A DNA stretch of 64,000 bases from Burkholderiaceae bacterium (GTDB lineage: Bacteria; Pseudomonadota; Gammaproteobacteria; Burkholderiales; Burkholderiaceae): NCBI GenBank assembly GCA_947448695.1, contig CANFOL010000007.1, positions 26,051 to 90,050 of the forward strand, read 5' to 3'. The notes under the pieces are model-generated. The model saw nothing but the letters and a program-made list of their open reading frames with translations, made no database searches and had not been told where the DNA came from. Made by a program: the position numbers and the translations under genes. Positions 25,430-26,903 of the stretch are shown piece by piece. Numbering within the stretch: the first letter of the stretch is position 1; every line of letters starts with the position of its first letter.

Positions 25430-25733
25430 GCAGAGTTGATTGGGCAATCGCCGCTTCTTAGAAGGGGAGGAAAGTCCGGACTCCATAGGGTAGGGTGGTG
25501 GCTAACAGCCATCCATGGCAACATGAGGAATAGGGCCACAGAGACGAGCGTATTTAGTTACGGTGAAACGCGGTAACCTCCACCCGGAGCAATCTCAAAT
25601 AGGCAGGCGTTGAGGCGACCCGCTAAGCCTGCGGGTAGAGAGCTCGAGTCCAGTGGCAACACTGGACCTAGATGAATGGTTGCCCCAAAGTGAAAACTTT
25701 GGCGACAGAATCCGGCTTATCGATCAACTCTGC
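25430..25733 (+). ncRNA. rnpB: RNase P RNA, bacterial class A
   Basis: P1 arms GCAGAGTTGAT / ATCAACTCTGC; conserved GAGGAAAGTCCGGACTCC, GGTAAACTC-like block AGGGCCACAGAGACGAG, ACAGAATCCGGCTTAT. Confidence 0.97.
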
Positions 25734-25739
25734 TTCTTT

Positions 25740-26177
25740 TTAGCCTTCAACGATCTCAATTGAGTGGGTAATCGTTGCAGTTTTGCCCAGCATAATAGTT
25801 GCAGAACAATATTTTTCATGTGACAAATGAACCGCTTGGCTGACTCGATTATGGTCTAGTTGTTTGCCAGTCACTATAAATTTCATGTTGATGTGAGTAA
25901 ACACTTTTGGATCCGTCTCAGCTCTAACTGCTTCTAGCTGGACTTTACAGCCAGTAATTTGTTGACGCGACTTTTTTAGAATCATCACAACGTCAAAGGC
26001 CGTACATCCCCCAGCACCCGCAAGAAGTAACTCCATCGGACGTGGTGCCAGATTACGCCCACCCGCCTCTGGAGCCCCGTCCATATTTAATAGGTGACCA
26101 CTGCCAACCTCTGCAGAAAAGCTCATCCCATCCAATCCAAGCCAATTAACCGTACATTCCATGTTGCACTCCAACAA
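25740..26177 (-). CDS. OsmC family protein
   Basis: RNLAPRPMELLLAGAGGCTAFDVVMIL; Cys position of OsmC/Ohr fold. Confidence 0.92.
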   Translation of the reverse strand: MLECNMECTVNWLGLDGMSFSAEVGSGHLLNMDGAPEAGGRNLAPRPMELLLAGAGGCTAFDVVMILKKSRQQITGCKVQLEAVRAETDPKVFTHINMKFIVTGKQLDHNRVSQAVHLSHEKYCSATIMLGKTATITHSIEIVEG

Positions 26178-26194
26178 AAATTATTAAAAAAGAC

Positions 26195-26223
26195 TTTACC
26201 TAGTGATAACCCTAATATATAAT
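26195..26223 (+). promoter_or_regulatory. strong sigma70 promoter-like element (P1) upstream of putative sRNA
   Basis: TTTACC - 17 nt - TATAAT. Confidence 0.75.
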
Positions 26224-26229
26224 TACCTT

Positions 26230-26330
26230 ATTGCGTACTATCTATCAATAGATTTTACAGCTACCGATGTCTCCTCCACCCAAACAAAGGTGGAATTCAT
26301 AGCCCAGAGTTTACCTCTGGGCTTTTTTTT
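26230..26330 (+). ncRNA. putative ~100-nt structured sRNA or attenuated leader
   Basis: Begins about 7 nt after P1 -10; hairpins ATCTA-TCAA-TAGAT, TCCACC-CAAACAAA-GGTGGA, and terminator; no plausible ORF. Confidence 0.5.
26301..26330 (+). terminator. intrinsic terminator
   Basis: AGCCCAGAG-TTTAC-CTCTGGGCT + T-tract (8 T). Confidence 0.92.
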
Positions 26331-26338
26331 GCTACAAT
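26310..26338 (+). promoter_or_regulatory. second sigma70 promoter-like element (P2), presumed rplM-rpsI promoter
   Basis: TTTACC - 17 nt - TACAAT; -35 lies in the terminator hairpin loop. Confidence 0.65.
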
Positions 26339-26474
26339 CATGGATTCCCTGACTTAGGTCCCAGGGAAATCGTATGACAGATTTAAGAATCAAGTGAGAG
26401 CGTGCAAACATAAGCAAGGCCGAATGAGATATTAAATACTGCTTGAAAGGACCCACAATTTAATGAAAGTAGTC

Positions 26475-26903
26475 ATGAAAACATTTTCCGCAAAATCCCA
26501 TGAGGTAAAGCGTGAATGGTTCGTGATTGACGCAACAGACAAAGTTCTCGGTCGTGTCGCCAGTGAAGTGGCACACCGTCTGCGCGGCAAGCATAAACCC
26601 GAATTCACCCCTCACGTTGACACTGGCGACTATATCGTCGTTATTAACGCTTCTAAACTCCGTGTTACGGGTAACAAAGGGTTGCAAAAGACATATTACC
26701 GTCACAGTGGATATCCAGGTGGTATCTATGAAACAACTTTTGACAAAATGCAGGCGAAGTTTCCTGGCCGTGTTCTTGAAAAAGCAGTTAAGGGTATGTT
26801 ACCTAAAGGTCCCCTTGGTTATGCAATGATCAAGAAGTTAAAAGTTTATGGTGATGAGACTCATCCACACGCGGCTCAACAGCCTAGCGTTTTAGAAATT
26901 TAA
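26475..26903 (+). CDS. rplM: 50S ribosomal protein L13 (ORF track start 26463; [15 protein letters not shown] start preferred)
   Basis: [41 protein letters not shown]. Confidence 0.98.

Follow-up and report, generated by a model that had tools for sequence, protein, structure and literature searches.

A predicted small RNA of the RF02278 family between osmC and rplM in Polynucleobacter

RF02278 ("Betaproteobacteria toxic small RNA") is the Rfam family of NcS03, NcS05, NcS27 and NcS62 (PMC4603805, PMC5688073) and of S17 (PMC11722255), and it also includes Hsnc059, Hsnc063, Hsnc086 and Hsnc107 of Herbaspirillum seropedicae (PMC7011215). NcS27 from B. cenocepacia J2315 and S17 from Bordetella pertussis each exist in a longer primary form and a shorter form produced by processing (PMC5688073, PMC11722255). 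In S17 the processing enzyme is RNase E, which acts where the conserved core begins (PMC11722255). Both RNAs control transporter and catabolic genes (PMC10987360, PMC11722255) and have been shown to repress by pairing at ribosome-binding sites (PMC5688073, PMC10987360, PMC11722255), in the case of S17 as an Hfq-bound RNA (PMC11722255). BCAL3348 appears among the ribosomal-protein genes (PMC5688073), and the location of NcS27 is between BCAL3348a and BCAL3349 (PMC4603805).

Anatomy and family assignment of the element

The DNA analysed here (the window, a 64,000-nt stretch from a Burkholderiaceae bacterium) carries an element between an osmC-like gene on the minus strand (25740-26177; Pfam OsmC, 7e-18) and rplM, which encodes ribosomal protein L13, on the plus strand (26463-26903; Pfam Ribosomal_L13, 4e-46). 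All parts of the element lie on the plus strand, and the promoter, hairpins, terminator and T8 run listed in a sequence-only reading of the region were all found where it had placed them. The promoter (26195-26223) consists of a -35 element TTTACC (26195-26200), a 17-nt spacer and a -10 element TATAAT (26218-26223), and in a promoter scan it was the top match in its kilobase (10/12). A start about 7 nt 3' of the -10 element would give a primary transcript of ~100 nt (26230-26330). The predicted transcript begins with a 5' leader (26230-26267), variable among 25 orthologs, which includes a hairpin ATCTA-TCAA-TAGAT (26240-26253), and continues into a conserved region corresponding to the presumed mature form (26268-26330), as judged from the family model and an alignment of 42 relatives. 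The CU-rich seed complementary to ribosome-binding sites, GAUGUCUCCUCC (Site 1), occupies 26266-26277 and runs into a hairpin TCCACC-CAAACAAA-GGTGGA (26275-26294) that is supported by folding and by the alignment. An intrinsic terminator (26301-26330) follows, composed of AGCCCAGAG-TTTAC-CTCTGGGCT at 26301-26323 and eight T residues at 26323-26330, which likely form an Hfq-binding tail. It was recovered by folding and was the only terminator found by the scan, with 0.7 expected. The region 26230-26330 folds at -31.8 kcal/mol compared with -15.4 ± 2.8 kcal/mol for 200 dinucleotide shuffles (z-score of -5.85), none of which folded as well.

A permissive Rfam scan of 26050-26500 matched RF02278 to 26268-26330 with 44.2 bits (E = 9.4e-8). 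The match spans the entire model, positions 1-64, including its CU-rich 5' end, hairpin and terminator. Hence the Rfam scan that the sequence-only reading had proposed does away with its description of the sRNA as undescribed, since the family is already known. The score falls short of the RF02278 gathering score of 50, and at gathering cut-offs the window gives only a tRNA and the class A RNase P RNA (25432-25735), with no sRNA match. The RNase P RNA lies beyond osmC, 3' of a gene that is named pyrC-like (dihydroorotase) from a reading of its ORF. We attribute the sub-threshold score to local divergence, namely an AU-rich loop and two extra bases before the terminator, rather than to missing homology. 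Many orthologs at the same locus within the genus score 51-59 bits, above the gathering score, and in a genome-wide search the sRNA was the only real match to RF02278 (E = 1.3e-7, the next match having E = 4.5). Assignment of the window RNA to RF02278, as judged from sequence, is based on this direct match together with its orthology to members above the threshold.

The window copy contains the invariant seed UGUCUCCUCCA of Site 1, which is a trait of the family. The second CU-rich site of RF02278 and the S17 group (Site 2, CUCCUCC), located in the hairpin loop, is absent from the window copy, where the loop reads CAAACAAA; some members of the genus still have a remnant of it, CCCTCCAAAA. Loss of Site 2 is a lineage variant within the RF02278 family. 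The element is a genuine sRNA gene and adds to an established family a new member that is slightly reduced in Polynucleobacter. Weak Rfam matches to anti-hemB, ylbH, ar14 and MicC were rejected because they score far under the threshold or owe their score to the terminator. The anti-hemB family (RF02837) likewise consists of CU-rich sRNAs with a terminator, but its match to the window (27 bits, gathering score 49.5) rests mostly on the terminator. Pattern matches in Methanosarcina, Lachnospiraceae and the like were regarded as chance, the terminator of the family being missing there. An antisense ORF of 72 residues on the minus strand (26238-26456) was set aside because it crosses the sRNA terminator and the rplM leader.

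Conservation of the locus and its relation to rplM

The covariance-model comparison upstream of rplM, which had also been suggested from the letters alone, gave a strong RF02278 match (E < 1e-6) in 32 of 36 genomes of the genus, in every case 190-230 nt 5' of rplM and on the same strand. The osmC gene is divergent on the other side of the sRNA at 31 of these loci, the remaining one giving no osmC match. Records named as Polynucleobacter (L095 and L138) have an identical arrangement with closely similar sequence, and on this ground the genus is taken to be Polynucleobacter. The four genomes with no strong match are three incomplete ones (78-83%) and a sister genome, G032, discussed below. Of 80 evenly drawn Burkholderiales genomes, 53 match RF02278 at E ≤ 0.001, and in 27 a family member precedes rplM by 81-256 nt in the same orientation. 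The order osmC-sRNA-rplM is found, for example, in Cupriavidus, Pandoraea, Thauera, Azonexus, Undibacterium and Herbaspirillum. The neighbourhood with osmC, but with no rplM close by, also persists in Variovorax and other Comamonadaceae, the order in Variovorax being coq7-osmC-sRNA (coq7 was called from its sequence). Bordetella has the order osmC-coq7-sRNA, which fits the reported location of S17 beside coq7 (PMC11722255). If BCAL3348 is rplM, as we infer, the window RNA is by synteny the ortholog of NcS27, the B. cenocepacia position being deduced from locus tags. It is probably also the ortholog of S17, judging from the neighbourhood, and most simply all three RNAs descend from one ancestral locus.

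Sequence conservation is concentrated in the part that matches the family model. The core UGUCUCCUCCAC is invariant in 25 of 25 genus sequences, which were collected by covariance model and synteny and so provide the fairer test of conservation, and UGUCUCCUCCA is nearly invariant across 42 order-wide sequences that were collected partly with a pattern containing the core. The stem TCCACC/GGTGGA hardly varies and has one compensated pair, while four pairs of the terminator stem show compensatory changes among members of the genus. The position of the sRNA -10 box is conserved, a TAnAAT box being present ~45-52 nt 5' of the core in most orthologs of the genus. Of the hairpins for which conservation and compensatory changes in relatives had been suggested as a check, the second hairpin and the terminator are therefore retained together with the CU-rich core. 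The 5' hairpin at 26240-26253 is not conserved among the 25 orthologs, the nearest relative (L152) included, and it was ruled out as a functional element.

Directly 3' of the T run lies a separate rplM promoter with an extended -10 element, TGCTACAAT (26330-26338, plus strand), which was detected by the scan and is conserved, its TA.AAT box being invariant in 25 genomes. A weak -35-like TTTACC of this promoter is found at 26310-26315, within the loop of the sRNA terminator. It was observed that sRNA termination and rplM initiation physically overlap at 26310-26338. The rplM leader proper (26339-26462) contains an early hairpin, TTCCCTG/CAGGGAA (26345-26368), and, at 26396-26421 (GAGAGCGTGCAAACATAAGCAAGGCC), the strongly conserved motif GAGCnTGCAAnCATAAGCnnnGCC. 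RNAalifold pairs the leader motif as a stem, and the early hairpin has some compensatory changes. The leader gave no Rfam match and is possibly an L13-responsive leader.

Read as the attenuated 5' leader of rplM-rpsI, the element would allow transcription from the 26195 promoter to stop at 26330 or to read through, and the sequence-only reading had offered such premature termination as a second explanation. Evidence against this comes from G032 (99% complete, single contig), which retains osmC, the rplM -10 box, the leader and rplM, whereas neither the sRNA core nor its terminator is recognizable upstream of rplM (L297). An attenuator would be required wherever rplM is present, and the loss of the sRNA with the rplM promoter and leader kept indicates that it is separable from rplM expression and makes attenuation unlikely. 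The sRNA is on the same strand as rplM, 133 nt upstream at a conserved distance, and any terminator can be expected to allow some read-through; however, an invariant -10 box distinct from that of the sRNA follows this terminator, as does a conserved leader. No alternative antiterminator fold is conserved, and what is invariant in the element is the seed. Many RF02278 copies are found elsewhere than beside rplM. Short attenuated 5'UTRs have been reported for BCAL3348, the ribosomal-protein gene adjoining NcS27 (PMC5688073), but the transcripts given for B. cenocepacia include the sRNA and the short 5'UTR as separate entries. We therefore regard control of rplM-rpsI by attenuation as very unlikely, and a free-standing sRNA, the first of the two original explanations, is supported by the family match, the synteny and the invariant seed.

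Predicted targets and mode of action

Targets of the sRNA were sought by pattern searches. Unanchored patterns were little or not enriched: a relaxed 13-mer with two mismatches was weakly above control (39 versus 28), and the bare 9-mer GGAGGAGAC was not enriched (7 versus 9 in the control), so only the set anchored to start codons was used. The pattern GGAGGAGACA-N(1-9)-ATG occurs at 61 sites in 41 genomes compared with one for the reversed pattern, a control that removes ordinary Shine-Dalgarno enrichment only in part. The genes that recur behind these sites in the genus are TctC receptors, a Peripla_BP_6 receptor, an amino-acid permease, a TPP enzyme and a FAD-binding subunit of a molybdopterin dehydrogenase. 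The Peripla_BP_6 receptor site, GGAGGAGACAACCATG, is present in about 10 genomes, the gene itself having been read in three. The genome of the window has few perfect seed sites ahead of an ATG (one GGAGGAGACA and one GGAGGAGAC). There, GAUGUCUCCUCC pairs without gaps over 12 contiguous bases with GGAGGAGACATC, located a few bases 5' of the ATG of a TctC-family receptor gene, and the TctC-type receptor gene (G000:C27) has the site GGAGGAGACATCAATATG. At starts within the window, even the best-scoring seed sites have no perfect match of extended length, and they were not counted as targets. Predicted from sequence complementarity, the targets are mostly solute receptors and catabolic genes, like the regulons of NcS27 and S17. 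The genome also encodes Hfq (E = 1e-29), so that an hfq gene and a U-rich terminator tail (T8), as looked for in an Hfq-dependent sRNA, are both present.

A more general action, in which the RNA would lower translation globally as an anti-Shine-Dalgarno decoy or a growth inhibitor instead of regulating defined mRNAs, is suggested by the resemblance of CUCCUCC to the 16S anti-Shine-Dalgarno sequence and by the family name "toxic"; moreover, cloned family members inhibit growth of E. coli, and overexpression of NcS27 slows growth (PMC4603805, PMC5688073). Conservation, however, is not limited to the anti-Shine-Dalgarno mimic but also covers UGUC, the pairing partner of the bases that follow the Shine-Dalgarno sequence. 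The triplet that follows GGAGGAG near an ATG is most commonly ACA (16 of the 141 sites listed, versus 2 for AAC and 1 for CAA), although many of these sites are orthologous and hence not independent. In addition, S17S showed little or no toxicity to E. coli during exponential growth, and defined mRNAs are what it acts on (PMC11722255). A general decoy function consequently appears improbable. The possibility that a terminator and the rplM promoter region are paired only by chance, with no functional RNA at all, can be virtually discounted given the fold z-score, the Rfam match, the invariance throughout the genus and the order-wide synteny.

The locus is very probably a free-standing gene for a trans-acting sRNA, the Polynucleobacter ortholog of the RF02278 member linked to osmC and rplM, which would repress receptor and catabolic mRNAs. 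We propose that a sigma-70 promoter would drive a ~100-nt transcript ending at the intrinsic terminator, and that 5' trimming would probably yield a stable form of ~63 nt starting at UGUCUCC. The leader (26230-26267) would probably be removed in this step, by analogy with the conversion of S17L to S17S and with NcS27 (PMC11722255, PMC5688073). With Hfq bound at the U tail, the exposed GAUGUCUCCUCC seed could pair with ribosome-binding sites of the GGAGGAGACA type and block translation of substrate-binding receptors and catabolic enzymes upon a change in nutrients or growth state. Expression, processing, Hfq binding and repression are in this proposal carried over from the characterized relatives. 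It is conceivable, though unlikely, that the Polynucleobacter RNA, reduced to a single-seed form, serves a streamlined genome as a one-copy regulator of solute-receptor translation whose fixed position ahead of rplM also couples it to the transcription of ribosomal proteins, for example by promoter interference where the sRNA terminator and the rplM promoter overlap.

Comparison with known small RNAs

The CcsR-type "cuckoo" RNAs of alphaproteobacteria contain the anti-Shine-Dalgarno-like CU motif CCUCCUCCC. They have this type of motif in common with the window RNA but differ from it in lineage and operon context, and no Rfam or sequence relation between the two was found here; the comparison drawn in the sequence-only reading holds as an analogy and not as kinship. 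Within RF02278, Herbaspirillum seropedicae has several copies per genome. Among the genomes sampled, those of the Oxalobacteraceae type (L043; L126, Undibacterium rugosum; G043) have many copies (9-13 matches in G043), and tandem copies within ~800 nt occur among them. Many of these copies have a TATAGT-like box at most ~10 nt from the core, which suggests that their transcription yields the short form directly.

The analysis places a known and experimentally studied sRNA family at a fixed, apparently ancestral osmC-sRNA-rplM locus across many Burkholderiales families. A freshwater genus with small genomes keeps this locus, in the present genome in a form that falls below the Rfam threshold, and the natural clean deletion in G032 together with the loss of the loop Site 2 makes it testable which seed matters.

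NcS27 resembles the window RNA in its double hairpin, its U-rich terminator and the same CU-rich seed (PMC4603805, PMC5688073), and it apparently occupies the same locus, adjoining BCAL3348. The window copy differs in its AU-rich 5' leader and in a hairpin loop without the CU motif, and it is the only one in its genome, compared with four homologs in B. cenocepacia. S17 and S17S share with the window RNA the invariant UGUCUCCUCCAC, the hairpin and the terminator. Unlike the window RNA, S17 follows coq7 rather than preceding rplM, derives from a 190-nt precursor with a 32-codon ORF, and retains the loop Site 2 that the window copy has lost. It nevertheless adjoins coq7 and osmC, part of the ancestral neighbourhood of the window RNA, and the locus described here thereby links NcS27 and S17 as probable orthologs.
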